Below the pieces are notes generated by a model that was not told the DNA's origin, did no database searches, and saw only the letters and a list, made by a program, of their open reading frames with translations. Both the position numbers and the translations under genes were made by a program. This document shows, piece after piece, positions 5,691-55,203 of a DNA stretch of 64,000 nt (the first letter of the stretch is position 1; each line of letters starts with the position of its first letter). Source of the stretch: Paragorgia papillata (lineage: Eukaryota; Cnidaria; Anthozoa; Scleralcyonacea; Coralliidae); NCBI GenBank assembly GCA_035771165.1, contig JAWNZC010000234.1, positions 2,284,501-2,348,500 on the forward strand, given 5' to 3'.

Positions 5691-5693
5691 TAT

Positions 5694-16000: not shown

Positions 16001-19000
16001 ACATTGTTCAAGGGAGACTATATAGTCTCCCCTGCATGGAAAGGGAGACTAATTAGTCTCCCTTCAGATTTTAGACTTGTCGTTTACATGGTACAAATTT
16101 GGAACACAATTAACAAGTGCCAAGTTAAAAGTATGGTTAAAGTATCATAAAAAAATTAATAAACTGATAAAAGTCAACAATGTCAACCAACATTTACGCA
16201 CTCCGTGATATGCGTTCATGCTCTATATATAACACCTTTAGCCGAAAATACCCCATTTTTGGAAAAGATGGAAGGAATGAGTCAAATTGTCTGAAATTTT
16301 CAGATAAGTCTACCTTTACCAAGATAAAACTTTAGTTAAAATATCAAGAAAAATTATAAAATCAAACAATGTGAACTGAGAGACATTGTTCAAGGGAGAC
16401 TATTTAGTCTCCCCTGCATGGAAAGGGAGACTAATTAGTCTCCCATCAGATTTTAGACTTGCCGTTTACATGGTACAAATTTGGAACACAATTAACAAGT
16501 GCCAAGTTAAAAGTATGGTTAAAGTATCATAAAAAATGATAAACTGATAAAGTCAGACGATGTCAACCAACATATACGCACTCCGTGATATGCAGTTTAT
16601 ACTCTATATATAACACCTTTAGCCGAAAATACCCCATTTTTGGAAAAGATGGAAGGAGTCAGTCAAATTGTCTGAAATTTTCAGATTAGTCTACTTTTTA
16701 CCAAGATAAAGCGTTAGTTAAAATATCAAGAGAAACCATTAAGTCAAACAATGTGAACCAACACATCATCCAAATATACGGCTTGTACTCTCTCTATATA
16801 TAACCCCTTTAGCCGAAAATACCCCCTTTTTGGAAAAGATGGAAGAAATCTGTCAAATGGCCTGAAATTTTGAAATTAATCTACTTTTACTAAGTTAGAA
16901 CTATGGTTAAAATATAAAGAGAAACCATGAAGTCAAACAATGTGAACCAACACATCACCCCATATATGCGGTTTTTACTCTCTCTATATATAACACCTTT
17001 AGCCGAAAATACCCCATTTTTGGAAAAGATGGAAGGAATGAGTCAAATTGTCTGAAATTTTCAGATAAGTCTGCCTTTACCAAGATAAAACTTCAGTTAA
17101 AATATCAAGAAAAATTATAAAATCAAACAATGTGAACTGAGAGACATTGTTCAAGGGAGACTATATAGTCTCCCCTGCATGGAAAGGGAGACTAATTAGT
17201 CTCCCTTCAGATTTTAGACTTGCCGTTTACATGGTACAAATTTGGAACACAATTAACAAGTGCCAAGTTAAAAGTATAGTTAAAGTATCATAAAAAATTA
17301 TAAACTGATAAAGTGAGACAATGTCAACCAACATATACGCACTCCGTGATATGCAGTTCATGCTCTATATATAACACCTTTAGCCGAAAATACCCCATTT
17401 TTGAAAAAGATGGAAGGAATCAGTCAAATTGTCTGAAATTTTCAGATAGGTCTACCTTTACCAAGATAAAACTTTAGTGAAAATATCAGGAAAAATTATA
17501 AAATCAAACAATGTGAACTGAGAGACATTATTCAAGGGAGACTATTTAGTCTCCCCTGCATGGAAAGGGAGACTAATTAGTCTCCCTTCAGATTTTAGAC
17601 TTGCCGTTTACATGGTACAAATTTGGAACACAATTAACAAGTGCCAAGTTAAAAGTATAGTTTAAAGTATCATAAAAAATTATAAACTGATAAAGTGAGA
17701 CAATGTCAACCAACATATACGCACTCCGTGATATGCAGTTCATGCTCTATATATAACACCTTTAGCCGAAAATACCCCATTTTTGAAAAAGATGGAAGGA
17801 ATCAGTCAAATTGTCTGAAATTTTCAGATAGGTCTACCTTTACCAAGATAAAACTTCAGTTAAAATATCAAGAAAAATTATAAAATCAAACAATGTGAAC
17901 TGAGAGACATTGTTCAAGGGAGACTATATAGTCTCCCCTGCATGGAAAGGGAGACTAATTAGTCTCCCTTCAGATTTTAGACTTGCCGTTTACATGGTAC
18001 AAATTTGGAACACAATTAACAAGTGCCAAGTTAAAAGTATGGTTAAAGTATCATAAAAAATGATAAACTGATAAAGTCAGACGATGTCAACCAACATATA
18101 CGCACTCCGTGATATGCAGTTTATACTCTATATATAACACCTTTAGCCGAAAATACCCCATTTTTGGAAAAGATGGAAGGAGTCAGTCAAATTGTCTGAA
18201 ATTTTCAGATTAGTCTACTTTTACCAAGATAAAGCGTTAGTTAAAATATCAAGAGAAACCATTAAGTCAAACAATGTGAACCAACACATCACTCCAAATA
18301 TACGGCTTGTACTCTCTCTATATATAACACCTTTAGCCTAAAATACCCCTTTTTGGGAAAAGATGGAAGAAATACTGTCAAATGGCCTGAAATTTTGAAA
18401 TTAATCTACTTTTAACTAAGTTAGAAACTATGGTTAAAATATAAAGAGAAACCATGAAGTCAAACAATGTGAACCAACACATCACCCCATATATGCGGTT
18501 TTTACTCTCTCTATATATAACACCTTTACCGAAAATACCCCATTTTTGGAAAAGATGGAAGGAATGAGTCAAATTGTCTGAAATTTTCAGATAAGTCTGC
18601 CTTTACCAAGATAAAACTTCAGTTAAAATATCAAGAAAAATTATAAAATCAAACAATGTGAACTGAGAGACATTGTTCAAGGGAGACTATATAGTCTCCC
18701 CTGCATGGAAAGGGAGACTAATTAGTCTCCCTTCAGATTTTAGACTTGTCGTTTACATGGTACAAATTTGGAACACAATTAACAAGTGCCAAGTTAAAAG
18801 TATGGTTAAAGTATCATAAAAAATTATAAACTGATAAAGTCAGACAATGTCAACCAACATTTACGCACTCCGTGATATGCCGTTCATGCTCTATATATAA
18901 CACCTTTAGCCGAAAATACCCCATTTTTGGAAAAGATGGAAGGAATGAGTCAAATTGTCTGAAATTTTCAGATAAGTCTAACCTTTACCAAGATAAAACT

Positions 19001-22000
19001 TTAGTTAAAATATCAAGAAAATTATAAAATCAAACAATGTGAACTGAGAGACATTGTCAAGGGAGACTAATTTAGTCTCCCCTGCATGGAAAGGGAGACT
19101 AATTAGTCTCCCATCAGATTTTAGACTTGCCGTTTACATGGTACAAATTTGGAACACAATTAACAAGTGCCAAGTTAAAAGTATGGTTAAAGTATCATAA
19201 AAAATGATAAACTGATAAAGTCAGACGATGTCAACCAACATATACGCACTCCGTGATATGCAGTTTATACTCTATATATAACACCTTTAGCCGAAAATAC
19301 CCCATTTTTGGAAAAGATGGAAGGAGTCAGTCAAATTGTCTGAAATTTTCAGATTAGTCTACTTTTACCAAGATAAAGCGTTAGTTAAAATATCAAGAGA
19401 AACCATTAAGTCAAACAATGTGAACCAACACATCACTCCAAATATACGGCTTGTACTCTCTCTATATATAACACCTTTAGCCGAAAATACCCCTTTTTGG
19501 GAAAAGATGGAAGAAATCTGTCAAATGGCCTGAAATTTTGAAATTAATCTACTTTTACTAAGTTAGAACTATGGTTAAAATATAAAGAGAAACCATGAAG
19601 TCAAACAATGTGAACCAACACATCACCCCATATATGCGGTTTTTACTCTCTCTATATATAACACCTTTAGCCGAAAATACCCCATTTTTGGAAAAGATGG
19701 AAGGAATGAGTCAAATTGTCTGAAATTTTCAGATAAGTCTGCCTTTACCAAGATAAAACTTCAGTTAAAATATCAAGAAAAATTATAAAATCAAACAATG
19801 TGAACTGAGAGACATTGTTCAAGGGAGACTATATATTCTCCCCCTGCATGGAAAGGGAGACTAATTAGTCTCCCTTCAGATTTTAGACTTGCCGTTTACA
19901 TGGTACAAATTTGGAACACCAATTAACAAGTGCCAAGTTAAAAGTATAGTTAAAGTATCATAAAAAATTATAAACTGATAAAGTATGACAATGTCAACCA
20001 ACATATACGCACTCCGTGATATGCAGTTCATGCTCTATATATAACACCTTTAGCCGAAAATACCCCATTTTTGAAAAAGATGGAAGGAATCAGTCAAATT
20101 GTCTGAAATTTTCAGATAGGTCTACCTTTACCAAGATAAAACTTTAGTGAAAATATCAGGAAAAATTATAAAATCAAACAATGTGAACTGAGAGACATTA
20201 TTCAAGGGAGACTATTTAGTCTCCCCTGCATGGAAAGGGAGACTAATTAGTCTCCCTTCAGATTTTAGACTTGCCGTTTACATGGTACAAATTTGGAACA
20301 CAATTAACAAGTGCCAAGTTAAAAGTATAGTTAAAGTATCATAAAAAATTATAAACTGATAAAGTGAGACAATGTCAACCAACATATACGCACTCCGTGA
20401 TATGCAGTTCATGCTCTATATATAACACCTTTAGCCGAAAATACCCCATTTTTGAAAAAGATGGAAGGAATCAGTCAAATTGTCTGAAATTTTCAGATAG
20501 GTCTACCTTTACCAAGATAAAACTTCAGTTAAAATATCAAGAAAAATTATAAAATCAAACAATGTGAACTGAGAGACATTGTTCAAGGGAGACTATATAG
20601 TCTCCCCTGCATGGAAAGGGAGACTAATTAGTCTCCCTTCAGATTTTAGACTTGCCGTTTACATGGTACAAATTTGGAACACAATTAACAAGTGCCAAGT
20701 TAAAATTATGGTTAAAGTATCATAAAAAATGATAAAACTGATAAAGTCAGACGAATGTCAACCAACATATACGCACTCCGTGATATGCAGTTTAAACTCT
20801 ATATATAACACCTTTAGCCGAAAATACCCCATTTTTGGAAAAGATGGAAGGAGTCAGTCAAATTGTCTGAAATTTTCAGATTAGTCTAACTTTTACCAAG
20901 ATAAAGCGTTAGTTAAAATATCAAGAGAAACCATTAAGTCAAACAATGTGAACCAACACATCACACCAAATATACGGCTTGTACTCTCTCTATATATAAC
21001 ACCTTTAAAGCCGAAAATACCCCTTTTTGGGAAAAGATGGAAGAAATCTGTCAAATGGCCTGAAATTTTGAAATTAATCTACTTTTACTAAGTTAGAACT
21101 ATGGTTAAAATATAAAGAGAAAACCATGAAGTCAAACAATGTGAACCAACACATCACCCCATATATGCGGTTTTTACTCTCTCTATATATAACACCTTTA
21201 GCCGAAAATACCCCATTTTTGGAAAAGATGGAAGGAATGAGTCAAATTGTCTGAAATTTTCAGATAAGTCTGCCTTTACCAAGATAAAACTTCAGTTAAA
21301 ATATCAAGAAAAATTATAAAATCAAACAATGTGAACTGAGAGACATTGTTCAAGGGAGACTATATAGTCTCCCCTGCATGGAAAGGGAGACTAATTAGTC
21401 TCCCTTCAGATTTTAGACTTGCCGTTTACATGGTACAAATTTGGAACACAATTAACAAGTGCCAAGTTAAAAGTATAGTTAAAGTATCATAAAAAATTAT
21501 AAACTGATAAAGTGAGACAATGTCAACCAACATATACGCACTCCGTGATATGCAGTTCATGCTCTATATATAACACCTTTAGCCGAAAATACCCCATTTT
21601 TGAAAAAGATGGAAGGAATCAGTCAAATTGTCTGAAATTTTCAGATAGTTCTTACTTTACCAAGATAAAACTTTAGTGAAAATATCAGGAAAAATTATAA
21701 AATCAAACAATGTGAACTGAGAGACATTATTCAAGGGAGACTATTTAGTCTCCCCTGCATGGAAAGGGAGACTAATTAGTCTCCCTTCAGATTTTAGACT
21801 TGCCGTTTACATGGTACAAATTTGAACACAATTAACAAGTGCCAAGTTAAAAGTATAGTTAAAGTATCATAAAAAATTATAAACTGATAAAGTGAGACAA
21901 TGTCAACCAACATATACGCACTCCGTGATATGCAGTTCATGCTCTATATATAACACCTTTAGCCGAAAATACCCCATTTTTGAAAAAGATGGAAGGAATC

Positions 22001-24060
22001 AGTCAAATTGTCTGAAATTTTCAGATAGGTCTACCTTTACCAAGATAAAACTTTAGTGAAAATATCAGGAAAAATTATAAAATCAAACAATGTGAACTGA
22101 GAGACATTATTCAAGGGAGACTATTTAGTCTCCCCTGCATGGAAAGGGAGACTAATTAGTCTCCCTTCACATTTTAGACTTGCCGTTTACATGGTACAAA
22201 TTTGGAACACAATTAACAAGTGCCAAGTTAAAAGTATGGTTAAAGTATCATAAAAAATTATAAACTGATAAAGTCAGACAATGTCAACCAACATATACGC
22301 ACTCCGTGATATGCCGTTCATGCTCTATACATAACACCTTTAGCCGAAAATACCCCATTTTTGGAAAAGATGGAAGGAATCAATCAAATTGTCTGAAATT
22401 TTCAGATTAGTCTAGTCTACTTTTACCAAGATAAAGCGTTAGTTAAAATATCAAGAGAAACCATTAAGTCAAACAATGTGAACCAACACATCGCTCCATA
22501 TATACGGCTTATACTCTCTCTATATATAACAACCTTTAGCCGAAAATACCCCTTTTTGGGAAAAGATGGAAGAAATCTGTCAAATGGCCTGAAATTTTTG
22601 AAATTAATCTACTTTTACTAAGTTAGAACTATGGTTAAAATATAAAGAAGAAACCATGAAGTCAAACAATGTGAACCAACACATCACCCCATATATGCGG
22701 TTTTTACTCTCTCTATTTATAACACCTTTAGCCGAAAATACCCCATTTTTGGAAAAGATGGAAGGAATGAGTCGAATTGTCTGAAATTTTCAGATAAGTC
22801 TACCTTTACCAAGATAAAACTTTAGTGAAAATATCAAGAAAAATTATAAAATCAAACAATGTGAACTGAGAGACATTATTCAAGGGAGACTATTTAGTCT
22901 CCCCTGCATGGAAAGGGAGTCTAATTAGTCTCCTTTCAGATTTTAGACTTGTCGTTTACATGGTACAAATTTGGAACACAATTAACAAGTGCCAAGTTAA
23001 AAGTATGGTTAAAGTATCATAAAAAATTATAAACTGATAAAGTCAGACAATGTCAACCAACATATACGCACTCCCGTGATATGCAGTTTTATAACTCTAT
23101 ATATAACACCTTTAGCCGAAAATACCCCATTTTTGGAAAAGATGGAAGGAGTCAGTCAAATTGTCTGAAATTTTCAGATTAGTCTACTTTTACCAAGATA
23201 AAGCGTTAGTTAAAATATCAAGAGAAACCATTAAGTCAAACAATGTGAACCAACACATCACTCCAAATATACGGCTTATACTCTCTCTATATATAACACC
23301 TTTAGCCGAAAATACCCCTTTTTGGGAAAAGATGGAAGAAATCTGTCAAATGGCCTGAAATTTTGAAATTAATCTACTTTTACTAAGTTTATAACTATGG
23401 TTAAAATATAAAGAGAAACCATGAAGTCAAACAATGTGAACCAACACATCACCCCATAAATGCGGTTTTTTACTCTCTCTATATATAACACCTTTAGCCG
23501 AAAATACCCCATTTTTGGAAAAGATGTAAGGAATGAGTCAAATTGTCTGAAATTTTCAGATTAGCCTACTTTTACCAAGATAAAACTTTAGTTAAAATAT
23601 CAAGAAAAATTGTAATATCAAACAATGTGAACTCAGAGACATTATTCAATGGAGACTATATTTAGTCCTCCCCTGCGTGGAAAGGGAGACTAATTAGTCT
23701 CTTTTCAGATTTTAGACTTCATGTCGTTTACATGGTACAAATTTGAACACAATTACCAAGTGCCAAGTTAAAAGTATGGCTAAAGTATCATAAAAACTGA
23801 TTATAAACTGATAAAGTCAGACAATGTCAACCAACTTATGCGCACTCCGTGATATGCAGTTTATACTCTAAAAATAACACGTTTATTAGCCGAAAATACC
23901 CCATTGTTGGAAATGATGGAAGAAAGTCAAAGTGTCTGAAATTTTGAAATGAATTTACTTTTACCAAGTTAGAACTATGGTTAACATATCAAGAGAAACC
24001 ATGAAGTCGAAGAATGTGAACCAACACATATATAAAACCTTTAGGCCTAAAAAACACTTT
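13100..24060. repeat. 11-kb satellite array with higher-order structure
   Basis: The landmark AACACCTTTAGCCGAAAATACC recurs roughly every 381 or 190 bases for 11 kb. Long units carry two adjacent palindromes, GGGAGACTA(T/A)TTAGTCTCCC and, after CTGCATGGAAA, GGGAGACTAATTAGTCTCCC; about twenty such pairs are present. Short units lack them. A longer pattern is visible: the variant TTTCAGATTAGTCTAC appears near 14024, 15543, 16682, 18208, 19352, 20878, 22405 and 23177, i.e. steps close to 1.14 and 1.52 kb (three or four long-unit lengths). Copies decay at the right edge (23.4-24.06 kb). The recurrent 62-65-residue open frames come only from copy identity. A centromeric or heterochromatic role is possible but not shown. 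Confidence 0.95.
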
Positions 24061-32731: not shown

Positions 32732-33988
32732 TTTTTTTGTTACATAATTAGAGAAATTAACATAATTGAATAAAGTTGCGTAATCGAGATGACGTTCACG
32801 TGATATTCAAAAGTCCAAAGTTTATCGTTCGAGACTGTAAACAACTGCCGACATGCAGTCTTACAGGGAAACTTGGAACCTTTTTTGTCATAAAAAAACA
32901 TTCAAAACTCGAAGATCTAGTTACGAAGGGAAGTCAGAATGCAGTCCAAGTGTTTTTAATGTTTAGTTGATAAAGATTCTTCGTCGTTCTTCTTCGTCGC
33001 TTGCTCGTTTTTTGGCTGTTCGCTTGCATGGAAAGTCGCTTTCAATATTTGGCTGACTGCATGAAAATTGAAAGTGTGGTCCTCAAGTTTGAAGACGAAA
33101 ATGCTTGTCAGTAAGCCATTTGTAATTTCAAGTTTCAAGGACATGAGACGATGAGGTTGGCATGTGGAAAATGTTTGGTTAAAAGGTAAAAGACTTAAAG
33201 CTTGTAGTGGTTTTGTTGAGTATAGCGGTTGGATAACAGAAGAAAGATAGTTTAGTATCAAAAGGTTTCACTGAGCTTTTCTATCTTAATCTCGTGGTAT
33301 GATTTTTTATATATATTTCTATATAGTTTCATTTAGTGATTCAAAATACTGTGTTCACAAGTTTATGTATGTTTTTCCTACCGTTTTAAACGGTTTTCTT
33401 TATAAATGTCAACTCGTAAATTTTTTGCTTTCAGTTTAACCAGCGTTTTTTTTAAATTCGTTGTTTACACATGAAGTTGTCAAAACTATTTGGATAATAA
33501 AACTCATTTGTATCCCCGTAGCTCTCTGTTGAATTTATTTTTTCTGTGGCAAGCGAAATAGTTATGAAAATCGGTCAATTTTAGATGAATTTTAAAATTA
33601 AATTTAGGATTCCGTGACCGTGGTCAGATATCGTAAAAAACTGCCCGCTCACGCAGCCAATCAAATTGCAGCATTACCTAGGATTCCGCCCGCTCACGAT
33701 TGATAAAAAAATAAAATATGTTAATAGAACTAACTAGATGTTAGTACCCAGTTTTTACACACATTTTTAAACTTTTTGAATAGTTTAACATATATCATTC
33801 AAAGCACTATTGTTTAAAACTCTCTAATTGTTTTATCTACACCTATATAAGGACGCTATTCTGTAATTTACCAGTATTCTTCAGCTGAAGAAGGTTATAG
33901 TAATTTTTATTGTGAATTATTTTTAAGCCAGAGTCAACAAATAAATATATATTTTTATTCTTATTCTTGTATATATATATATATATAT
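32732..33988. other. No gene; repeat remnant at 33600-33730
   Basis: CCGTGACCGTGGTCAGATATC and the doubled phrase GCCCGCTCACG (33646 and 33690) look like an old element end. AAAAAATAAAATATGTTAAT at its edge mirrors TAACATATTTATTTTTTTG at 32721. The two edges may bound one ~1.1-kb non-autonomous element with the palindrome at its left end. The rest is featureless. Confidence 0.4.
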
Positions 33989-33996
33989 AGTTCAAT

Positions 33997-34039
33997 CTAC
34001 AGACACGGTGTTTCGCTGTACAACAGCTCATCAGTGTAG
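33997..34039 (-). ncRNA. Hammerhead ribozyme, retrozyme copy 1
   Basis: Read on the minus strand: stem I strand CTACA (34039-34035), CTGATGA (34034-34028), stem II GCTG/CAGC with loop TTGTA, GAA (34014-34012), stem III ACA/TGT with loop CCG (34011-34003), then C at 34002. The TGTAG that follows (34001-33997) pairs perfectly with the first CTACA. Every invariant core base is present, and the cleavage triplet is GUC, with cleavage expected between 34002 and 34001. The very short stem III is normal for this class. Confidence 0.9.
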
Positions 34040-34273
34040 CTTGGAACAATCTGAATGAATTTCATCAATTATTTATACACATGCGATCGTCGGTGACAAC
34101 CGCATGTGGGACAGCATCGACGAAGTACATTCGGATAGCGTGAAGTGCGCATGGGCCCAGAGTGCTCAAACTTCCACAAGGGTAGTGAGCGTTGCATTAT
34201 CGCTAATAGGTACCCACGGCAACTTCACAGAGTGCTCAAAAACACCGAAGTGAAGGAGCGTACATAGTTCAAT

Positions 34274-34316
34274 CTACAGACACGGTGTTTCGCTGTACAA
34301 CAGCTCATCAGTGTAG
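34274..34316 (-). ncRNA. Hammerhead ribozyme, retrozyme copy 2
   Basis: Identical core to copy 1: CTGATGA, GCTG/CAGC stem II, GAA, ACA/TGT stem III, GUC cleavage triplet, and CTACA/TGTAG stem I. Cleavage is expected between 34279 and 34278. Cleavage here and in copy 1 would release a 277-nt RNA (34278 down to 34002). Confidence 0.9.
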
Positions 34317-34469
34317 CTGGGAACAATCTGAATGAATTTCATCAATTATTTATACACATGCGATCGTCGGTGACAACCGCATGTGGGACAGCATCGGTGA
34401 AGTACATTCGGATAGCGTGAAGTGCGCATGGGCCCAGAGTGCTCAATTGCTCAGTATATATATATATAT

Positions 34470-35905
34470 ATATATATATACATACAAAGTATGAAGTATA
34501 GTTTTACGACTTTTACCGTAAAGTCTTCGCTACCAGAGGTTTCACCCTAAACGGGATCATCAGGCGACTGAAAAATACCGGTTAGTGGGCTGCTTAAATG
34601 CGTTGGTTGGGGCGTGGGTGTCGAAACGTCCGGCGCATTCCTTTGGAGCATGGGTGTGGGCGTCGAAACGTTGATCCGAAATCTGTTTTTGTGCCGACAG
34701 GTCGAAACTATTTCTGATCTTTTGTTTAGTAAAAGTCGTTTGTCTGCCTTCATGATGAAAATTTTTTCGTCCAAACATAAATTGCATCTTTTTTATCCTC
34801 CCGTGTAAGAAATTGAGTGTTTTAGTATAGACCAGGTTATGTCGAAACTTTGTTGTTGTTTTTTTAGATTCCAAATGTATTTCGAAAGTTCCGTCTCATT
34901 TGAATACTTTTTATTCTGGAAAGATTTAGTATGGTTACGATATCGCTCTTTAAATGTACTTGCTGTCATGCCAATGTATTGCTTAGTGATGTTCGTGTTG
35001 CTTATGGAAATAGATGCCTTGTATACTATGTTGTTTGTCATGCATTGCCCACGTAGGGGGCAATTGTCCTTAATCATGCAATTGCAACTGCTTGTAACTA
35101 TGCTTAGTGGCTTGCTTTTCCTGATTGTGCATGAATTATGTTTCGTGATAATAGACTTGACGTTGTTCATGCAACTATAGCTAATCTTGACTGTGTTTCT
35201 GTTAAAGAGTTTGTGAAGCTTGTGTCCTGGTGGAAAGTGCTTGTCAATAAGGCTAAGAAAGTTGCGTCCTATGTTTGTTTTGACATTTTTGTTAAATGGA
35301 GGGTTAAACCAGATGATATTGCGGTGTCTATTTCTGCGTGTTTGCTGTGGTGCTTCTTGTGTGTAGTTTAGCTCATGGTTGAAATTGCTGCGCCTTAATG
35401 CATTTTGGTAAATTGGTGCGGTTTCATGGAATGTCCGCTCGTCAGACGAGAGGAGGGAAATGCGCTTGTTGATTGATGTAGGTAGCTGTCTTAAAATGCT
35501 TGGCGGGTGGTTTGATTGCTTGTTTATGTATAATGGATCGAAAAGGTTTGTATTTTCCATTGCTTAGGTCGAAAGTAACGTCTAAAAAGTTTACTGAAAT
35601 TAAATTTGCTTCTGCCGTGATTTTTAAGCCAAACTGTTCGACACTTTTGTGAAGATCTTTTCTTGTTTTGTCTGCCAATCGTGCGGTCTTATTTTTTAGT
35701 ACTGCCAATCCGTCGTCTCTATATAAGCCAATATTTTGGTTGCCAAACTTTTTCCCTAGGTCGTTTAGAATGAAAAGGCCTACTAGTTCGCATATACTTC
35801 AGCGCCGTCATAGCTACCCATGGTAACATCAAATAAACTGTTGCTGTCTTTTTTTATCCACGGTTTTTCGTTGTTGAAAAGGAGCGATTTTTCAAACAAC
35901 GAAAA
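34470..35905 (-). pseudogene. Penelope-like element, 5'-truncated, broken (RT end + GIY-YIG)
   Basis: The minus strand encodes the C-terminal part of a PLE polyprotein. It opens in the reverse transcriptase palm: [10 protein letters not shown], then NIGLYRDDGLAVLKN, where YRDD holds the catalytic aspartates. The RT thumb and linker follow (LYINKQSNHPPSILRQLP). Then comes the Cys-rich linker (CNC..DNCPLRGQC) and the GIY-YIG-type endonuclease (IVYKA ... YIGMTASTFKERYRNH), ending with CNLC ... CRHKNRF. Lesions are a 2-base insertion near 35800, a frameshift near 35535, and an in-frame stop where the plus copy has Ser (about 34790). Everything before the RT palm is missing. The element ends in a hammerhead and a TA run. 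Insertion would normally proceed by target-primed reverse transcription. Confidence 0.85.
34527..34567 (-). ncRNA. Hammerhead-like motif in PLE tail (minus copy)
   Basis: Minus strand: TCGC (34567-34564) before CTGATGA (34563-34557), stem II CCC/GGG with loop GTTTA, GAA, stem III ACC/GGT with loop TCT, cleavage triplet GUA, then GCGA (34530-34527) pairing with TCGC. The base pair next to the core in stem II is U-U instead of a Watson-Crick pair, so activity may be low. Confidence 0.75.
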
Positions 35906-35918
35906 GGATCAAAAAATC

Positions 35919-37028
35919 AAACTACCCGCCAAGCATTTTAAGACAGCTACCTACATCAATCAACAAGCGCATTCCCCTCCTCTCGTCTGACGAGCGGACA
36001 TTCCATGAAACCGCACCAATTTACCAAAAAGCATTAAGGCGCAGCAATTTCAACCATGAGCTAAACTACACACAAGAAGCACCACAGCAAACACGCAGAA
36101 ATAGACAGCGCAATATCATCTGGTTTAACCCTCCATTTAACAAACATGTCAAAACAAACATAGGACGCAACTTTCTTAGCCTTATTGACAAGCACTTTCC
36201 ACCAGGACACAAGCTTCACAAATTTTTAACAGAAACACAGTCAAGATTAGCTATAGTTGCATGAACAACGTCAAGTCTATTATCACGAAACATGATTCAC
36301 GCACAATCAGGAAAAGCAAGCCACTAAGCATAGTTACAAGCAGTTGCAATTGCAGGATTAAGGACAATTGCCCCCTACGTGGGCAATGCATGACAAAGAA
36401 CATAGTATACAAGGCATCTATTTCCATAAGCAACACGAACATCACTAAGCAATACATTGGCATGACAGCAAGTACATTTAAAGAGCGATATCGTAACCAT
36501 ACTAAATCTTTCCAGAATAAAAAGTATTCAAATGAGACGGAACTTTCGAAATACATTTGGAATCTAAAAGAAAAAAAACAAAGTTTCGACATAACCTGGT
36601 CTATACTAAAACACTCAATTTCTTACACGGGAGGATCAAAAAGATGCAATTTATGTTTGGACGAAAAACTTTTCATCATGAAGGCAGACAAACAACTTTT
36701 ACTAAACAAAAGATCAGAAATAGTTTCGACCTGTCGGCACAAAAACAGATTTCGGATCAACAACCTAAACAATCAAAGGAATGCGCGCAACGTTTCGACG
36801 CCCACACCCACGCTCCAAAGGAATGCGCCGGACGTTTCGACACCCACGCCCCAACCAACGCATTTAAGCAGCCCACTAACCGGTATTTTTCAGTCGCCTG
36901 ATGATCCCGTTTAGGGTGAAACCTCTGGTAGCGAAGACTTTAAGGTAAAACTATACTTCATACTTTGTATTTTGCTCTATCTATATATGGTATTGAGCAC
37001 TCTCTAACATTTCGTGAACCAAAACTCA

Positions 37029-37030
<2 letters not shown>
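35919..37030 (+). pseudogene. Penelope-like element, second copy, 5'-truncated
   Basis: A plus-strand copy of the same family begins at about 35919 within the RT C-terminal region (CAAACTACCCGCCAAGC), out of frame at first. An open frame from about 36261 covers the Cys-rich linker (CNCRIKDNCPLRGQC), the GIY-YIG-type nuclease (YIGMTASTFKERYRNH), CNLCLDEK and CRHKNRF. It ends in a threonine/proline-rich tail (DVSTPTPTLQR), the last residues of which overlap the ribozyme DNA. The nuclease part is uninterrupted for 217 residues, so it is better preserved than the minus copy, but the RT is gone. The two copies meet head-to-head at 35905-35919. The 3' tail matches 5697-5826 and ends in (TA)n. Confidence 0.85.
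36894..36934 (+). ncRNA. Hammerhead-like motif in PLE tail (plus copy)
   Basis: TCGC (36894-36897), CTGATGA (36898-36904), stem II CCC/GGG with loop GTTTA flanked by a U-U mismatch, GAA (36918-36920), stem III ACC-TCT-GGT (36921-36929), A36930 as the cleavage residue, then GCGA (36931-36934) closing stem I. The motif overlaps the end of the element's open frame. Hammerheads in PLE long-terminal-repeat-like regions are an established feature of these elements. Confidence 0.8.

Positions 37031-37097
<67 letters not shown>
37021..37097. repeat. (TA)n microsatellite at PLE/satellite border
   Basis: About 70 bases of TA separate the PLE tail from the first recognisable copy of the 1.09-kb satellite. 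Confidence 0.95.
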
Positions 37098-43640: not shown

Positions 43641-44269
43641 GACGTCACGGGCTTCTCAAGTTACGCGCAGAGCGTCTTTTAGAAATTTTAATGGCGGACG
43701 TCAAATTTGAGATTTCAACTCGCCGTAACAGCGCCGCTTTTTTTAATTTTGACATGAAACTTAGTACAGTAGTTTGTGGGTAGGTATACTTCACAATTAT
43801 GAAATAAAAATGAGGGGTGAAATTTTCGTCTTAGTGACACTTTAAAGTTAAAATTTGCTTGTTTCTACATGGAATACGACTGCAAGAAACTCGGCATGTC
43901 GAGAAGCAAACGTGAAACTGCGGAATGCCGTGATATGAAGCTGAAACTAAGTAGCCGAGTTACCCGCCTGTCTCATATAAACACTCTGCCGGGATAGCAT
44001 TGAATTTCTATACATGGCGGGTAATTGGTTTGCCGAGTAACTCGCCTAGCCGGGTAATTCGGCTTCGTATAAACAGGCCCTAAGCAGAAAAGCAGAAAAA
44101 CATGCAGATTTGTCATTTTGGACGTAATAATTATTTTCTTCCTTTTGTTTCATGCACAGGGCGTTTTCAGGCATTGTTACACCCATGCTTTACTTATGCA
44201 TTATGCTTTACCTGTACGAGTTGTATACTGTTTGTTATGCATATCAATAAGTAGTCATATATATATATA

Positions 44270-44520
44270 TAGTTCAATCTACAGACACGGTGTTTCGCTG
44301 TACTACAGCTCATCAGTGTAGCTTGGAACAATCTGAATGAATTTCATCAATTACTTATACACATGCGATCGTCGGTGACAACCGCATGTGGGACAGCATC
44401 GGTGAAGCACATTCAGATAGCGTGAAGTGCGCATGGGCCCAGAGTGCTCAAACTTCCACAAGGGTAGTGAGCGTATATATTATAGTGCTCAAACTTCCAC
44501 AAGGGTAGTGAGCGTGTATA
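44270..44520 (-). mobile_element. Retrozyme fragment in the 1.09-kb satellite
   Basis: It begins after a TA run with AGTTCAATCTACAGACACGG and carries the same unit as 33989-34265 up to GGGCCCAGAGTGCTC. Then a ~40-base phrase (GTGCTCAAACTTCCACAAGG ... GAGCGT) is duplicated. It holds one complete ribozyme, not two, so it is a partial unit. Confidence 0.8.
44279..44321 (-). ncRNA. Hammerhead ribozyme, retrozyme copy 3
   Basis: Same structure as the two at 34 kb: CTACA/TGTAG stem I, CTGATGA (44316-44310), GCTG/CAGC stem II, GAA, ACA-CCG-TGT stem III, and GUC. The only change is in the stem II loop (TAGTA instead of TTGTA), which lies outside the conserved core. Stem and core conservation in a copy 10 kb away supports function of the fold. 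Confidence 0.88.
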
Positions 44521-47500
44521 TATTAGCAACTGGAGACTTCCGTCTAATAGCCTTATGGGAGTTTGCATCAATTTATATAAAGGAAGCTAGCCGAACATTT
44601 CCATCATTTTAAATATTCTGGTGAGATTACATGGAAGTGAACTTCTGGGAAATAGTATCAAAATAGTATAATATCAAGAAAAGTATGCTGTGAGACAAAC
44701 TCACAAATTTGTAAGTACATTCATTGTTTGTAGATAAAAACCTTATAACAACCCCATAAAATATATACAACCGCAAACCAGAGAAAAAATGGCCATGCAG
44801 TGAATGATATTCAAAAGGCTGAGGAGTAATGCGGATCTGATAATAATCGATTTCGAAAGCAAGTGCAAAGTTGTTGATCAACTTATTGATTTTGCTAAAT
44901 GAGTTTTTAAGCAGTGGACGGTTTTCATGGTGTACATGCTGAATACTGAGGTACCTGTTTAACAAAGCATATATGAAAGTTAATTTGAGGATTCACAGTC
45001 ATGTTCTATATCGATTCATGTTTATGCATCGCCTTTCCGAAAATATGTTCATTGTTCCAAGATACTGATTTCATATATTATGAGGTAGCTGACCGTTCAC
45101 ATACGCGTTTCATAAACGTAAAAATATAAGGAATCTGAGGCAAGAATTATATAGATTTTGCAAGTGAATTCTCTATAAGTTCACGGTGACTGGAAAACAA
45201 AACTTTATTTTGAAAATCAAAAGCGAAAGCAAATATCCTCAAAGCAAACTCGAAATATCAGCAAAACGATTCACTTGCTTTCGATTAATTTCAAAGAGAC
45301 AAATTTATGAACTATACTCAACGTTAGTCTGTTAAAGTCAAAATTTGCTTGTTTCTTGGAATACGACGACTACAAGAAATTCGGCATGTCGAGAAGCAAA
45401 AGTAAAACTGCGGATATGATAGTTGAAGCTGAAACAAAGCGGAAAAGCAGAAAAATATGCAGATTTGTCATTTTGGATGTAATATTTTTTCTTTCTTTCT
45501 TTTTGTCTGCACTGGGTGTTTTCATGCAGTCATTGTTATTAATAACACTCAAGCTATATATGCATTATGCTTTACCTGTAAGAGTTGTGTACTGTTTGCT
45601 ATGCATGTAAATTAGCAGTAATATACATTTTGGCAACTGGAGACTTCTGTCTAATATTGCATCAATTTCTAAAAGGGAAGCTAGCCGAACATTTCCATCA
45701 TTTTAAATATTCTGGTGAGATTACTACAGAAGTGAACTTCTGGGAAATAGTATCAAAATAGTATAATATCAAGAAAAGTATGCTGTGAGACAAACTCACA
45801 AATTTGTAAGTACATTCATTGTTTGTAGATAAAAACCTTATGACAACCCCATAAAATATATACAACCGCAAACCAGAGAAAAAAATGGCCATGCAGTGAA
45901 TGATATTCAAAAGGCTGAGGAGTAATGCGGATCTGATAATAATCGATTTCGAAAGCAAGTGCAAAGTTGTTGATCAACTTATTGATTTTGCTAAATGAGT
46001 TTTTAAGCAGTGGACGGTTTTCATGGTGTACATGCTGAATACTGAGGTACCTGTCTAACAAAGCATATATGAAAGTTAATTTGAGGATTCACAGTCATGT
46101 TCTATATCGATTCATGTTTATGCATCGCCTTTCCGAAAATATGTTCATTGTTCCAAGATACTGATTTCATATATTATGAGGTAGCTGACCGTTCACATAC
46201 GTGTTTCATAAACGTAAAAATATAAGGAATCTGAGGCAAGAATTATATAGATTTTGCAAGTGAATTCTCTATAAGTTCACGGTGACTGGAAAACAAAACT
46301 TTATTTTGAAAATCAAAAGCGAAAGCAAATATCCTCAAAGCAAACTCGAAATATCAGCAAAACGATTCACTTGCTTTCGATTAATTTCAAAGAGACAAAT
46401 TTATGAACTATACTCAACGTTAGTCTGTTAAAGTCAAAATTTGCTTGTTTCTTGGAATACGACGACTACAAGAAATTCGGCATGTCGAGAAGCAAAAGTA
46501 AAACTGCGGATATGATAGTTGAAGCTGAAACAAAGCGGAAAAGCAGAAAAATATGCAGATTTGTCATTTTGGATGTAATTTTTTTTTTTCTTTCTTTTTG
46601 TCTGCACTGGGTGTTTTCATGCAGTCATTGTTATTAATAACACTCAAGCTATATATGCATTATGCTTTACCTGTAAGAGTTGTGTACTGTTTGCTATGCA
46701 TGTAAATTAGCAGTAATATACATTTTGGCAACTGGAGACTTCTGTCTAATATTGCATCAATTTCTAAAAGGGAAGCTAGCCGAACATTTCCATCATTTTA
46801 AATATTCTGGTGAGATTACTACAGAAGTGAACTTCTGGGAAATAGTATCAAAATAGTATAATATCAAGAAAAGTATGCTGTGAGACAAACTCACAAATTT
46901 GTAAGTACATTCATTGTTTGTAGATAAAAACCTTATGACAACCCCATAAAATATATACAACCGCAAACCAGAGAAAAAATGGCCATGCAGTGAATGATAT
47001 TTAAAAGGCTGAGGAGTAATGCGGATCTGATAATAATCGATTTCGAAAGCAAGTGCAAAGTTGTTGATCAACTTATTGATTTTGCTAAATGAGTTTTTAA
47101 GCAGTGGACGGTTTTCATGGTGTACATGCTGAATACTGAGGTACCTGTCTAACAAAGCATATATGAAAGTTAATTTGAGGATTCACAGTCATGTTCTATA
47201 TCGATTCATGTTTATGCATCGCCTTTCCGAAAATATGTTCATTGTTCCAAGATACTGATTTCATATATTATGAGGTAGCTGACCGTTCACATACGCGTTT
47301 CATAAACGTAAAAATATAAGGAATCTGAGGCAAGAATTATATAGATTTTGCAAGTGAATTCTCTATAAGTTCACGGTGACTGGAAAACAAAACTTTATTT
47401 TGAAAATCAAAAGCGAAAGCAAATATCCTCAAAGCAAACTCGAAATATCAGCAAAACGATTCACTTGCTTTCGATTAATTTCAAAGAGACAAATTTATGA

Positions 47501-50500
47501 ACTATACTCAACGTTAGTCTGTTAAAGTCAAAATTTGCTTGTTTCTTGGAATACGACGACTACAAGAAATTCGGCATGTCGAGAAGCAAAAGTAAAACTG
47601 CGGATATGATAGTTGAAGCTGAAACAAAGCGGAAAAGCAGAAAAATATGCAGATTTGTCATTTTGGATGTAATATATTTTTTTTTCTTTCTTTTTGTCTG
47701 CACTGGGTGTTTTCATGCAGTCATTGTTATTAATAACACTCAAGCTATATATGCATTATGCTTTACCTGTAAGAGTTGTGTACTGTTTGCTATGCATGTA
47801 AATTAGCAGTAATATACATTTTGGCAACTGGAGACTTCTGTCTAATATTGCATCAATTTCTAAAAGGGAAGCTAGCCGAACATTTCCATCATTTTAAATA
47901 TTCTGGTGAGATTACATGGAAGTGAACTTCTGGGAAATAGTATCAAAATAGTATAATATCAAGAAAAGTATGCTGTGAGACAAACTCACAAATTTGTAAG
48001 TACATTCATTGTTTGTAGATAAAAACCTTATGACAACCCCATAAAATATATACAACCGCAAACCAGAGAAAAAATGGCCATGCAGTGAATGATATTTAAA
48101 AGGCTGAGGAGTAATGCGGATCTGATAATAATCGATTTCGAAAGCAAGTGCAAAGTTGTTGATCAACTTATTGATTTTGCTAAATGAGTTTTTAAGCAGT
48201 GGACGGTTTTCATGGTGTACATGCTGAATACTGAGGTACCTGTCTAACAAAGCATATATGAAAGTTAATTTGAGGATTCACAGTCATGTTCTATATCGAT
48301 TCATGTTTATGCATCGCCTTTCCGAAAATATGTTCATTGTTCCAAGATACTGATTTCATATATTATGAGGTAGCTGACCGTTCACATACGCGTTTCATAA
48401 ACGTAAAAATATAAGGAATCTGAGGCAAGAATTATATAGATTTTGCAAGTGAATTCTCTATAAGTTCACGGTGACTGGAAAACAAAACTTTATTTTGAAA
48501 ATCAAAAGCGAAAGCAAATATCCTCAAAGCAAACTCGAAATATCAGCAAAACGATTCACTTGCTTTCGATTAATTTCAAAGAGACAAATTTATGAACTAT
48601 ACTCAACGTTAGTCTGTTAAAGTCAAAATTTGCTTGTTTCTTGGAATACGACGACTACAAGAAATTCGGCATGTCGAGAAGCAAAAGTAAAACTGCGGAT
48701 ATGATAGTTGAAGCTGAAACAAAGCGGAAAAGCAGAAAAATATGCAGATTTGTCATTTTGGATGTAATATTTTTTTTTCTTTCTTTTTGTCTGCACTGGG
48801 TGTTTTCATGCAGTCATTGTTATTAATAACACTCAAGCTATATATGCATTATGCTTTACCTGTAAGAGTTGTGTACTGTTTGCTATGCATGTAAATTAGC
48901 AGTAATATACATTTTGGCAACTGGAGACTTCTGTCTAATATTGCATCAATTTCTAAAAGGGAAGCTAGCCGAACATTTCCATCATTTTAAATATTCTGGT
49001 GAGATTACATGGAAGTGAACTTCTGGGAAATAGTATCAAAATAGTATAATATCAAGAAAAGTATGCTGTGAGACAAACTCACAAATTTGTAAGTACATTC
49101 ATTGTTTGTAGATAAAAACCTTATGACAACCCCATAAAATATATACAACCGCAAACCAGAGAAAAAATGGCCATGCAGTGAATGATATTCAAAAGGCTGA
49201 GGAGTAATGCGGATCTGATAATAATCGATTTCGAAAGCAAGTGCAAAGTTGTTGATCAACTTATTGATTTTGCTAAATGAGTTTTTAAGCAGTGGACGGT
49301 TTTCATGGTGTACATGCTGAATACTGAGGTACCTGTCTAACAAAGCATATATGAAAGTTAATTTGAGGATTCACAGTCATGTTCTATATCGATTCATGTT
49401 TATGCATCGCCTTTCCGAAAATATGTTCATTGTTCCAAGATACTGATTTCATATATTATGAGGTAGCTGACCGTTCACATACGCGTTTCATAAACGTAAA
49501 AAATATAAGGAATCTGAGGCAAGAATTATATAGATTTTGCAAGTGAATTCTCTATAAGTTCACGGTGACTGGAAAACAAAACTTTATTTTGAAAATCAAA
49601 AGCGAAAGCAAATATCCTCAAAGCAAACTCGAAATATCAGCAAAACGATTCACTTGCTTTCGATTAATTTCAAAGAGACAAATTTATGAACTATACTCAA
49701 CGTTAGTCTGTTAAAGTCAAAATTTGCTTGTTTCTTGGAATACGACGACTACAAGAAATTCGGCATGTCGAGAAGCAAAAGTAAAACTGCGGATATGATA
49801 GTTGAAGCTGAAACAAAGCGGAAAAGCAGAAAAATATGCAGATTTGTCATTTTGGATGTAAATATTTTTTTTTCTTTCTTTTTGTCTGCACTGGGTGTTT
49901 TCATGCAGTCATTGTTATTAATAACACTCAAGCTATATATGCATTATGCTTTACCTGTAAGAGTTGTGTACTGTTTGCTATGCATGTAAATTAGCAGTAA
50001 TATACATTTTGGCAACTGGAGACTTCTGTCTAATATTGCATCAATTTCTAAAAGGGAAGCTAGCCGAACATTTCCATCATTTTAAATATTCTGGTGAGAT
50101 TACATGGAAGTGAACTTCTGGGAAATAGTATCAAAATAGTATAATATCAAGAAAAGTATGCTGTGAGACAAACTCACAAATTTGTAAGTACATTCATTGT
50201 TTGTAGATAAAAAACCTTATGACAACCCCATAAAATATATACAACCGCAAACCAGAGAAAAAATGGCCATGCAGTGAATGATATTCAAAAGGCTGAGGAG
50301 TAATGCGGATCTGATAATAATCGATTTCGAAAGCAAGTGCAAAGTTGTTGATCAACTTATTGATTTTGCTAAATGAGTTTTTAAGCAGTGGACGGTTTTC
50401 ATGGTGTACATGCTGAATACTGAGGTACCTGTCTAACAAAGCATATATGAAAGTTAATTTGAGGATTCACAGTCATGTTCTATATCGATTCATGTTTATG

Positions 50501-52143
50501 CATCGCCTTTCCGAAAATATGTTCATTGTTCCAAGATACTGATTTCATATATTATGAGGTAGCTGACCGTTCACATACGCGTTTCATAAACGTAAAAATA
50601 TAAGGAATCTGAGGCAAGAATTATATAGATTTTGCAAGTGAATTCTCTATAAGTTCACGGTGACTGGAAAACAAAACTTTATTTTGAAAATCAAAAGCGA
50701 AAGCAAATATCCTCAAAGCAAACTCGAAATATCAGCAAAACGATTCACTTGCTTTCGATTAATTTCAAAGAGACAAATTTATGAACTATACTCAACGTTA
50801 GTCTGTTAAAGTCAAAATTTGCTTGTTTCTTGGAATACGACGACTACAAGAAATTCGGCATGTCGAGAAGCAAAAGTAAAACTGCGGATATGATAGTTGA
50901 AGCTGAAACAAAGCGGAAAAGCAGAAAAATATGCAGATTTGTCATTTTGGATGTAATATTTTTTTTTCTTTCTTTTTGTCTGCACTGGGTGTTTTCATGC
51001 AGTCATTGTTATTAATAACACTCAAGCTATATATGCATTATGCTTTACCTGTAAGAGTTGTGTACTGTTTGCTATGCATGTAAATTAGCAGTAATATACA
51101 TTTTGGCAACTGGAGACTTCTGTCTAATATTGCATCAATTTCTAAAAGGGAAGCTAGCCGAACATTTCCATCATTTTAAATATTCTGGTGAGATTACATG
51201 GAAGTGAACTTCTGGGAAATAGTATCAAAATAGTATAATATCAAGAAAAGTATGCTGTGAGACAAACTCACAAATTTGTAAGTACATTCATTGTTTGTAG
51301 ATAAAAACCTTATGACAACCCCATAAAATATATACAACCGCAAACCAGAGAAAAAATGGCCATGCAGTGAATGATATTCAAAAGGCTGAGGAGTAATGCG
51401 GATCTGATAATAATCGATTTCGAAAGCAAGTGCAAAGTTGTTGATCAACTTATTGATTTTGCTAAATGAGTTTTTAAGCAGTGGACGGTTTTCATGGTGT
51501 ACATGCTGAATACTGAGGTACCTGTCTAACAAAGCATATATGAAAGTTAATTTGAGGATTCACAGTCATGTTCTATATCGATTCATGTTTATGCATCGCC
51601 TTTCCGAAAATATGTTCATTGTTCCAAGATACTGATTTCATATATTATGAGGTAGCTGACCGTTCACATACGCGTTTCATAAACGTAAAAATATAAGGAA
51701 TCTGAGGCAAGAATTATATAGATTTTGCAAGTGAATTCTCTATAAGTTCACGGTGACTGGAAAACAAAACTTTATTTTGAAAATCAAAAGCGAAAGCAAA
51801 TATCCTCAAAGCAAACTCGAAATATCAGCAAAACGATTCACTTGCTTTCGATTAATTTCAAAGAGACAAATTTATGAACTATACTCAACGTTAGTCTGTT
51901 AAAGTCAAAATTTGCTTGTTTCTTGGAATACGACGACTACAAGAAATTCGGCATGTCGAGAAGCAAAAGTAAAACTGCGGATATGATAGTTGAAGCTGAA
52001 ACAAAGTGGAAAAGCAGAAAAATATGCAGATTTGTCATTTTGGATGTAATATTTTTTTTTCTTTCTTTTTGTCTGCACTGGGTGTTTTCATGCAGTAGTC
52101 CTGGAGCGAGTACGTCGGAAGCTTTCGTCAGCGTTGTCGGCAA

Positions 52144-54064
52144 ATGACGTTAAGCAAGCAAACCGCGGACAAAACATGGACTGTGGAGCAACAAAATGTA
52201 AACACAAGTACACAACTAAGTGTTTTCAGTAATTTCAATAATTTACTTATCATGTGCAGTTTAAAGGACGCTCGAGAGATGCTTCTTTTGTCCATGCTCC
52301 ATAGTTTTATCACGGAGGAAGAGTTTGTGCTTTTATACGATGCCAGTTTCTCTAAGAACCTGAATTTTCCCCACAAAGACTACGGTCGATTCAACCTCGA
52401 CGACATGGACGAAACTGAGTGTTATCAGGAATTTAGAGTGTGCAAACTCGACATACCTCGTCTGGCCGATGCACTCAGGTTACCAGAGAGTTTGAGCTGC
52501 TATCAGCGAACTAGAGCAGACAGAATCGAGGGACTTTGCATGGTGTTGAAGAGACTGTCCTATCCCTGTCGTTAATACAGCGACATGATTCACCGATTTG
52601 GTCGTGCAGTCCCAGAAATCAGCATGATTACTAATTGTTTTGAGGACTGGATTTATGAAAACCATCACAGGAAGATAACTGAATGGAATGCTGAACTGTT
52701 GAGTCAAGATAAACTCCAGTTATATGCTAATGCTGTAGCGGCTAAAGGAGCAGCACTAACCAACTGCTTTGGTTTTGTGGATGGGACTGTACGACCAATT
52801 TGCAGACCAGGCAAAAACCAAAAAATTGTGTACAACGGGCACAAAAGAGTCCACGCTTTGAAATTCCAGTCGGTTACAGTGCCAAATGGACTGGTTGCCC
52901 ACCTGTATGGTCCTGTAGGTAAGCTTTATTGCTCTATTAAATGCTTATATTGATATTGCTTTATTAAATGCTTATAGTAAGTAAAAGATTACACCACAAC
53001 CACCTGTTGACTCATGACCTAGAGTTAACTTATAGTTGTGTAATTTGTATACATTTTACATTACATCTCTAATAGTCTACAGTTACACTTGTGGGTGTTG
53101 GGTAGCCAGCTACGGTTTACCGACCCAGTACTGTTTGGGTTGCAGTTTACGACCCAGTACTCATTTGGGAATTTTAGTATTTTCCCCTAGCACTCGGATC
53201 TTGGCTACCAGAGTGTTTTAAAGTACAGTGACCAATTTTAAAATACAACAACTTGAGAGCTTGAGATCCTACTGTGCATAGAAGATGACACCCATATACA
53301 TAATCATTTATTACTTCAATATTTATTTTACTAATATTTACTGTAATTGTGCAACTATTTTAGCATTTTACCACTTCACTGCTAAAGCACATTACCAGCT
53401 GAATATGTAAAAGCCTACAGTTAAAACTGTTAAAAACCCCTGAATTAATAGCCTGCTTTTGGTTTTCCAAATTAAACTTTGGTATTTTTTCCAAAACACC
53501 TGGGGTTTTTAAAAGCAGAGGTGCTGGTGGGCTGGCTTTTTGTAAAAAGAAACAGGGTTTTCAACAACCTGGTGTTCAGTATGTAGATTTATTATACCTA
53601 AGTTTTTCTAAATAAAATAACTTATTAAGTTTATTTTCTGAAATTACACAGAGGGTAGAAAGCATGATGCAGCAATGCTGAAGGATTCCAGGCTGTTAGA
53701 GAATTTGGAAATGAATGCCATTAGCCCAACTGGTATGCCCTATTGTCTGTACGGAGACCCTGCATATCCACTGAGACTTCATCTACAGGCACCATTCAGA
53801 GATAATCCACTCACAGCTCCGATGCAACAGTTCAACAAGTCAATGAGTGTGGTGCGTTCATCAGTTGAGTGGATCTTTGGTGATATTGTTTGTTCATTTA
53901 AATTTATTGATTTTAAAAAAAATCTAAAAATTGGTTTAAGTGCTGTTGGTAAACATTATGTAGTCAGTGCATTGCTAAGAAATGCTTTAACATGCATGTA
54001 TAGTAATGGTGCAGCCAAGTTCTTTGGAGTGGATCCACCTTCTCTTGAGGAATACTTTGCATAA
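52144..54064 (+). pseudogene. Harbinger (HARBI1-type) DDE transposase, one stop codon
   Basis: Two exons: up to 52918 (donor G|GTAAGC) and 53652-54064 (acceptor ACACAG), which join in phase as GPV-E-GRKHDAAM. The DDE_4 catalytic triad is present: Asp in GFVDGTVRP, Asp in YGDPAYPL, and Glu in VEWIFGDI. The helical N-terminal region (YQRTRADRIEGLCMVLKRLSYP) precedes it. An in-frame TAA at 52573-52575, between SYPCR and YSDMIHRFG, is the only break I see; it looks like an extra codon. In-frame ATGs occur at 52144 and 52252, and the true start is uncertain since TGTGCAG before 52261 could be an acceptor. The enzyme would cut and paste the element together with its SANT partner. Confidence 0.85.
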
Positions 54065-54369
54065 ATTATTATTTGAATATACCCAGAACACATTGTCATA
54101 TGCAACACAAAAAGAAATATATATATATACTTTGTAACAATGAATTTTCCTGTTTATTAATTAATATCAAGCCCTTTCAGTAATATATTACTTAATTTAA
54201 ATGTAATTTGAATGACATTTAATTCGGGATATTAATTAACTCAATATTATTATAACGATGTATTACACAACATGTCACACAAAATATAATGTAAATCAAG
54301 ATATACTTAAATTGTAAATTATATATTTTTCAAATGAATGTACAGTAAAAACTCTGTTGAATAAATAAT

Positions 54370-54500
54370 TAATAAATACACATTGTGACTTGTGTAGACT
54401 TAAACTGTCTAATTAAGGGTTTTTTCCCAATATGGACTGTCATCAGCATTTGATATTGCTGTTGTTGCTGCTGAGCCATGATGGCTTGCATTTGCAAAAA

Positions 54501-54533
<33 letters not shown>

Positions 54534-55203
54534 TTGTTCCTGCTGCTGTTGCTGTTGTTGTTGTTGTTTGATTAGCATTTGCATGAGGCCATGATGCTGT
54601 TGGTCAAGCAGTTGTTGCCTGTTGGATTCCTTTTCTACCTGCTTTGATCTTATTCCACATCCCTCTCTTTTAATGTCATCTCCTCTTTTGCCCTCTCACG
54701 TAAGTATGCTACCACTTCGGATCCATTTGATCTACTTTTCTTGGATTTGGGCTGACTGGACTCTTGTTCCCCTTCTGACCTCTTTTTTGTTTGGCTGAGG
54801 ACCTCCATTGCTTTCAATCTAATATCCTGAGCTTGCTTTTGCTCTAGTTGTAATTTTTCTCTAGCTTTTTCATCTTCCTCATCTCTCATCTGTTCATTAG
54901 CCTCCATTCTCTCTGTTATTTCCTCTAGCAGTCTGTCCAATTCAGTTGGTTCAGGGCTTATTCCACTTGAAGTGAGCTCTTTTGAAGTTTTCTTTTTAAA
55001 TTTGTCCACAAGCCCTACAAAATGCTCCCGTACAGATCTCTTGCTCACTTTGAAGTCTGGTAGCTTGGTTAAGTTGTCTGCTATGGTCTGCCATGCTTGA
55101 GCTCTGTTCACTGTTTTTTCTCTTGTTTTGTATGGCAAGACTTCATGACAATCTGCAAGACTTCATGACACAAAAGCAGGTCCTTCCTTTCATTCCATTC
55201 CAT
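54370..55203 (-). pseudogene. Harbinger SANT/Myb-like accessory protein, frameshifted
   Basis: Minus strand: ATG at 55203 gives MEWNERKDLLLCHEVL. Then a ~20-base tandem duplication (GTCATGAAGTCTTGC repeated) shifts the frame. The SANT/trihelix-type domain follows from PYKTREKTVNRAQAWQTIAD to SKRSVREHFVGLVDKFKKK, then an acidic coiled stretch (RMEANEQMRDEEDEKAREK) and a basic segment (PKSKKSRSN). A one-base loss near 54657 moves the rest to another frame: GIRSKQVEKESNRQQLLDQ and a poly-Gln tail to 54370. In PIF/Harbinger elements this protein binds the transposon ends and carries the transposase to the nucleus. With two frame breaks it is inactive. Confidence 0.8.

Follow-up and report, generated by a model that had tools for sequence, protein, structure and literature searches.

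Two hammerhead ribozymes lie in tandem, 277 nt apart, on the minus strand of a 64,000-nt stretch of the Paragorgia papillata genome (contig JAWNZC010000234.1, positions 2,284,501 to 2,348,500; hereafter the window), at positions 34267-34324 and 33990-34047. They belong to an animal retrozyme without long terminal repeats (LTRs), an element of established type for which we add here a well-resolved insertion pattern. The retrozyme features of the window are as follows.

33990..34266, minus strand: retrozyme unit 1, 277 nt, with the hammerhead at 33990-34047 and predicted cleavage at 34002/34001
34267..34446, minus strand: retrozyme unit 2, 5'-truncated, about 180 nt, 98.3% identical to unit 1, with the hammerhead at 34267-34324 and predicted cleavage at 34279/34278
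44272..44474, minus strand: retrozyme copy 3, 5'-truncated, 203 nt, with the hammerhead at 44272-44329
44484..44515, minus strand: 5' end of the 44-kb insertion, partly repeated (41-bp tandem duplication)
34261..34266, minus strand: UAUGUA, right after GAAC in the circle; candidate annealing site for a TA-ending DNA primer
33970..33989, no strand: (TA)n at the 3' end of the 34-kb insertion
34455..34480, no strand: (TA)n between a neighboring Penelope-like element (PLE copy A, below) and the retrozyme 5' end
44257..44271, no strand: (TA)n at the 3' junction of the 44-kb copy

Both 34-kb hammerheads are canonical and of type I, with the invariant core (CUGAUGA, GAA, and GUC) complete, a 4-bp stem II (GCUG/CAGC), a 3-bp stem III (ACA/UGU, with the loop CCG), and a stem I whose first helix has 5 bp (CUACA/UGUAG). 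This is what the original prediction had read at these places, and its 277-nt spacing and two cut sites, which would free a 277-nt RNA, also match the sequence. Its account of stem I held for the perfectly pairing 5 bp but overlooked that the stem is bipartite, with a second 4-bp helix (GUUC/GAAC) following an internal loop (CAAG or CCAG on one side, AUU on the other); the loops that might make contacts between helices I and II, one internal to stem I and the other closing stem II, are both present. Similarly, the two hammerheads do stand in tandem, but the tandem extends over 1.6 units, short of a full dimer, and the third copy at 44 kb (97% identity across 203 nt) had been passed over. The unit has a GC content of 47%. 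The window's list of open reading frames has no long frame in the retrozyme; no LTR, primer-binding site, or polypurine tract was noticed when reading it, with no dedicated search made for these.

Copies, insertion ends, and an empty site

The unit was searched for in the 618-Mb assembly (473 contigs; 40 of 230 candidates were scored, and the counts are lower bounds). At least 106 matching pieces were found, and the loci described below are the best-scoring matches rather than a random sample. The tandem copies that the original prediction had suggested looking for range from dimers to long arrays (L036 and L037 on one contig, L044 and L045 on another, L023, and L032, each a stretch of at least 11 units), and dispersed copies are found as well. 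The full units listed are 94-100% identical to the window unit, which suggests that the retrozyme may have been active recently. One locus, L046 (contig C1), is a higher-order array in which retrozyme units are mixed with AACAAAGTA repeats and TA tracts; its nine counted terminal ends read GAAC-TA, and one further cluster (8438-8998) ends differently.

We compared 24 dispersed insertions, to which L003 and L008 contribute two rows each; excluded were the array loci L023, L032, L036, L037, L044, L045, and L046, overlapping loci, copies shorter than 100 nt (among them an 87-nt inverted copy in L004), copies that run off the edge of their locus, and L031, the flanks of which repeat those of L025. 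In 21 of the 24, the insertion has the same 3' end, at GAAC, 12 nt past the cleavage site, and continues into TA; 20 of these ends are clean and one (L011) is mutated near the cut. The 5' ends, taken from BLAST boundaries, are scattered over 21 positions of the unit, and insertion lengths range from 142 to 1407 nt, or 0.5 to 5 units. Among terminal hammerhead copies of the scanned loci, 29 of 31 end in GAAC-TA (28 by the script threshold plus L041; nine are from L046). Target-primed reverse transcription characteristically leaves such a picture, the 3' end usually fixed and the 5' ends spread out. Because the cleavage junction sits inside the insertion's 3' end, a self-cut linear RNA copied from its own 3' end is excluded as the template, and we infer that a circle or an uncut multimer was copied instead.

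TA runs of at least 8 accompany these ends. Of the 24 insertions, 23 have such a run no more than about 45 nt from the 3' end and 14 have one no more than 45 nt from the 5' end, against a background of 0.27% of bases in ten sampled 4-kb stretches and 1.1% in the window. That 10 insertions have no such run on the 5' side speaks against the element merely having landed inside a long TA tract.

For one insertion the state of the target can be seen. The 44-kb copy is embedded in sequence that is related to a 1.1-kb tandem repeat but has diverged from it. Seven related repeats without the insert could be aligned (shorter BLAST matches to one flank were left out), and at the corresponding site they have only a short AT run, six of them reading ...AGCAGTAATATACATTTTGGCAACTGG and one a near variant. 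The occupied site, in contrast, has a 15-nt TA run on the element's 3' side and TATATAT opposite. The 44-kb copy is thus an insertion into what had been a short AT run, and the TA run has expanded at its 3' junction. The 1.1-kb repeat itself forms an array of about seven near-identical units (99%) at 44563-52096, with diverged relatives at about 38.7-39.4 kb and 56-57 kb.

The Penelope-like neighbor

The 34-kb retrozyme is adjoined by an inverted pair of PLE fragments (34485-37030) with a GIY-YIG endonuclease fold, a neighbor absent from the original prediction.

34485..35870, minus strand: PLE copy A, 5'-truncated and frame-disrupted, 3' end without a tail; borders approximate
34793-35563, minus strand: GIY-YIG reading frame of copy A
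34527..34567, minus strand: minimal type I hammerhead of copy A (stem I UCGC/GCGA, stem II CCC/GGG, stem III ACC/GGU; pre-cut base A)
35915..37030, plus strand: PLE copy B, inverted relative to copy A, 98% identical over 848 bp
36189-36914, plus strand: GIY-YIG reading frame of copy B
36894..36934, plus strand: minimal type I hammerhead of copy B
36993..37003, plus strand: 11-mer TTGAGCACTCT in the PLE tail

The tail of copy B terminates in CTCACT and is followed by (TA)n at 37031-37097. Further PLE fragments lie at 5691-6033, where the hammerhead at 5834 has a broken stem I. In both places the inverted pairs come with and without a tail and then pass into TA or TA-rich sequence. The minimal hammerhead probably sits in the PLE pseudo-LTR, every PLE copy seen being less than full length. 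A putative telomerase-type reverse transcriptase, expected upstream of the endonuclease in one frame with it, is represented by frame-broken remnants only, in which we read by eye YRDDG, presumably the PLE reverse transcriptase motif. The endonuclease was not named by Pfam or NCBIfam profiles, and a PDB sequence search gave nothing relevant; one PLE relative (P0044) exceeded the cut-off of a "kidney androgen-regulated" profile, which we rejected as unrelated. Among 120 listed relatives of a PLE relative, two carry an organism name, Apostichopus japonicus and Oculina patagonica. Viral and bacterial/archaeal contigs were scanned by exact pattern for the hammerhead and for the PLE terminal region, and a phage collection was searched by BLAST; there was no match, as expected of eukaryotic DNA.

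The PLE and the retrozyme are alike in having TA at their 3' junctions and in their AT-type targets. They also share TTGAGCACTCT, which occurs six times in the window, always in sense: four times in the retrozyme (34159, 34229, 34436, and 44441, all minus) and in two PLE tails, that of copy B and a tail fragment at 5726 (minus). When shuffled PLE tails were compared with the circle, 11 nt were shared in 3 of 300 same-strand trials and 0 of 300 either-strand trials. A broader pattern, GCTC-spacer-GAGCACT, has six window matches against 0.08 expected by chance, all in retrozyme or PLE; a tighter version, with stricter last letters and spacer, matches two retrozyme copies only. As an RNA hairpin, only the PLE-tail version of the pattern has support (z -2.8); in the second retrozyme copy z is +0.4, and in the first another pairing prevails.

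The two elements are also found side by side. Of 30 sequences (the two window sites plus 28 of 46 loci; L025 and L031 share flanks), 8 have PLE sequence joined to a retrozyme via TA-rich tracts, compared to none in a 40-kb background. In seven cases the two are within about 110 bp; in L002 they are separated by a TA-rich repeat of about 430 bp. Template switching was considered for these joints and rejected: the intervening TA tract favors successive insertion, and the orientation of the pairs (below) is not significant. Head-to-head pairing is not confined to the PLE, since L004 (1236-2045, contig C354) holds two retrozyme copies of 723 and 87 nt, head to head and in opposite sense, as in PLE pairs.

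Mobilization and its alternatives

Leaving the role of the PLE aside, we consider it probable that this is a non-autonomous retrozyme family whose RNA template is copied into nicked AT-rich targets. Tandem or read-through transcripts would be cut by the canonical hammerhead into 277-nt RNAs, and these, by analogy with published work, would be closed into circles by a host ligase. The circle, or an uncut multimer, would then be reverse transcribed from a nicked AT-rich target. We imagine that the target's TA end pairs with UAUGUA (five Watson-Crick pairs and one G-U are possible with TATATA), so that copying would begin at GAAC, 12 nt past the ligated cleavage site; that end point is visible in the DNA. 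The enzyme might circle the template up to several times and stop anywhere, which would explain why the insertions, of 0.5 to 5 units, mostly share a 3' end but differ in where their 5' ends fall. Slippage may lengthen the 3'-junction TA run; the lengthening itself is demonstrated for one insertion.

As the source of endonuclease and reverse transcriptase, the adjoining PLE family seems to us the most likely candidate, though we hold this less firmly than the copying scheme. One can go further and envision, tentatively, the retrozyme circle as a PLE parasite, carrying the tail motif GCUC...GAGCACU twice per circle and pairing through UAUGUA with a PLE-cut TA end. A telomerase-like PLE reverse transcriptase would add TA by slippage and copy the circle repeatedly, and some of the PLE-TA-retrozyme joints would be single events. 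If true, integration, dimer formation, and TA junctions would all come from one enzyme.

A number of observations weigh against these interpretations. Three of the 24 insertions depart from the common 3' end: that of L005 lies five nt earlier, at AT repeats, and those of L033 and one L008 copy are broken. The 87-nt inverted copy in L004, outside the 24, has an end without TA. An uncleaved multimer would give junctions identical to those from a circle. Rfam calls no hammerhead in the window at the gathering score; at relaxed E-values, Hammerhead_3 matches both copies with 16.1 bits (E 4.3) and 15.6 bits (E 6), where the cut-off is 48.5. Nearest-neighbor folding of the bare 58-nt motif favors an alternative structure by 2.4-2.9 kcal/mol, with a stability no greater than that of shuffles, a result that is not decisive because the model is without tertiary contacts. 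The greater conservation of hammerhead core and stems is borderline (site-level permutation P 0.055). For the PLE in particular, ends without a tail, that of copy A included, are missing the 11-mer; six of the seven close pairs are in the same sense, L005 being tail to tail, an orientation bias that is not significant; and a common preference for TA tracts alone could set PLE beside retrozyme. Mobilization by the PLE is something we infer, because a shared taste for TA would explain both junctions and adjacency without a shared enzyme.

Among the alternatives, that a long interspersed nuclear element (LINE) rather than the PLE moves the retrozyme is a real though unlikely possibility. The window contains a LINE-like reverse transcriptase fragment (60971-61555, Pfam RVT_1), which we take to be a LINE, and TA tails made by slippage resemble the microsatellite tails of some LINEs; moreover, LINEs are among the candidates named in PMC7229834. 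Against this, the target type, the tail motif, and the TA 3' junctions are common to PLE and retrozyme. It is improbable that the retrozyme arose by splitting off from the PLE as that element's terminal repeat module: at six places PLE 3' ends do pass via TA tracts into same-sense retrozymes, and TTGAGCACTCT is common to both, but the window's PLE 3' ends at 37030 and near 5700 enter TA with no retrozyme, the junction point on the retrozyme varies between places, and the two hammerheads are unlike in sequence and architecture. A purely satellite origin, with tandem repeats spread by unequal exchange and the hammerhead as a passenger, would account for the long arrays; it is already disfavored, and still less probable than a split-off module, given dispersed single or short copies that mostly share their 3' end but differ at the 5' end and, for one of them, an empty site.

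A chance resemblance to a hammerhead, for which the weak Rfam scores and the alternative fold of the bare motif might speak, is hardly credible, since the strict motif (stem I at least 5 bp, stem II at least 4) appeared in 0 of 150 dinucleotide-shuffled windows and the core is unaltered in 30 of 30 locus consensuses. With relaxed stems, a descriptor scan of the window found five hammerhead-like sites, the three retrozyme copies and the two minimal PLE hammerheads (cores at 34563, minus, and 36898, plus), compared to a mean of 0.02 and a maximum of one in the shuffles. Folded as a circle, the 277-nt RNA reaches -86.9 kcal/mol, 4.6 standard deviations below shuffles, and imposing the hammerhead fold on it costs 6.7 kcal/mol. 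The original prediction had looked to conservation of the pairing positions relative to the rest of the unit. The result did not refute the reading, and its direction is as expected: in the 30 consensuses, 0 of 330 core cells, 4 of 960 stem cells, and 3 of 450 loop cells differ, compared to 82 of 6492 in the body; the statistical support is that borderline P value. Over all 210 units the rates are 0.26% (6/2309) for core, 0.31% for stems, 0.60% for loops, and 1.28% for body, with units of one array non-independent and some loci overlapping. The 30 consensuses hold too few changes for covariation in the helices, and the three window copies by themselves show no hammerhead conservation (2/58 versus 5/122 variable positions; Fisher P 1.0).

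Relation to known elements and other features of the window

The reading as an animal retrozyme, put forward in the original prediction, is well supported by the tandem type I hammerheads, GC below 50%, multiple dispersed copies, and common 3' but variable 5' ends; the layout was likewise rightly described as established. Metazoan non-LTR retrozymes with type I hammerheads have been described from coral, mussel, and axolotl (Cervera and de la Pena 2020, PMC7229834). As that paper presents them, they share with ours tandem units (170-400 nt there), GC below 50%, occurrence from dimers to long arrays, a self-paired predicted circle, and PLEs with minimal hammerheads in the same genome. What is resolved here, from DNA alone, is the usual 3' end 12 nt past cleavage, the TA junction, the scattered 5' ends, and the empty site. 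A term search of the main text of PMC7229834 found no such junctions, the words "microsatellite" and "dinucleotide" being absent from it. A literature search, mostly without full texts and with the 2014 and 2017 PLE-hammerhead papers outside it, found neither fixed TA 3' ends nor a PLE-retrozyme joint recognized for animal retrozymes.

The window PLEs share with published PLEs carrying minimal hammerheads, as portrayed in the accessible parts of PMC11167929 and PMC3846280, the GIY-YIG domain, AT-rich targets, head-to-head inverted copies with an optional 3' tail on one side, and a minimal hammerhead near the terminal repeat. The retrozyme differs from the PLEs in its full-size hammerhead and in having no long listed reading frame. 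Plant LTR retrozymes (PMC7761336, in part) similarly have tandem hammerheads and a circular RNA intermediate, the circle here being predicted; theirs are type III hammerheads in elements of 600-1000 bp, with a primer-binding site, a polypurine tract, and 4-bp target duplications. The Schistosoma Sm-alpha and newt satellite repeats can be likened by description, having type I hammerheads in repeats of a few hundred bp (PMC6155905, in part).

Animal retrozymes are abundant, yet their mobilizing enzyme is only proposed; PLEs have been named strong or likely helper candidates without a test, as far as the consulted parts of PMC7229834 and PMC7761336 go. At the locus described here the element's ends are defined and an empty site is known, and the same genome supplies candidates for both the priming site and the helper family. 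With these features, the question of PLE mobilization can be put to an in vitro reaction similar to the one established for the Anolis PLE (PMC11167929, in part).

Elsewhere in the window, a conserved 169-aa frame at 3376-3885 (minus strand) has 25 relatives, 19 of them at 60% identity or more, with no Pfam match and no name. Harbinger-like DDE transposase pieces lie at 52099-55162 (Pfam DDE_Tnp_4 at 53642-54064); the frame beside them at 54650-55162, which has no Pfam match, may be the Harbinger partner protein. An 11-kb array of a 190/381-bp satellite occupies 13171-24021.
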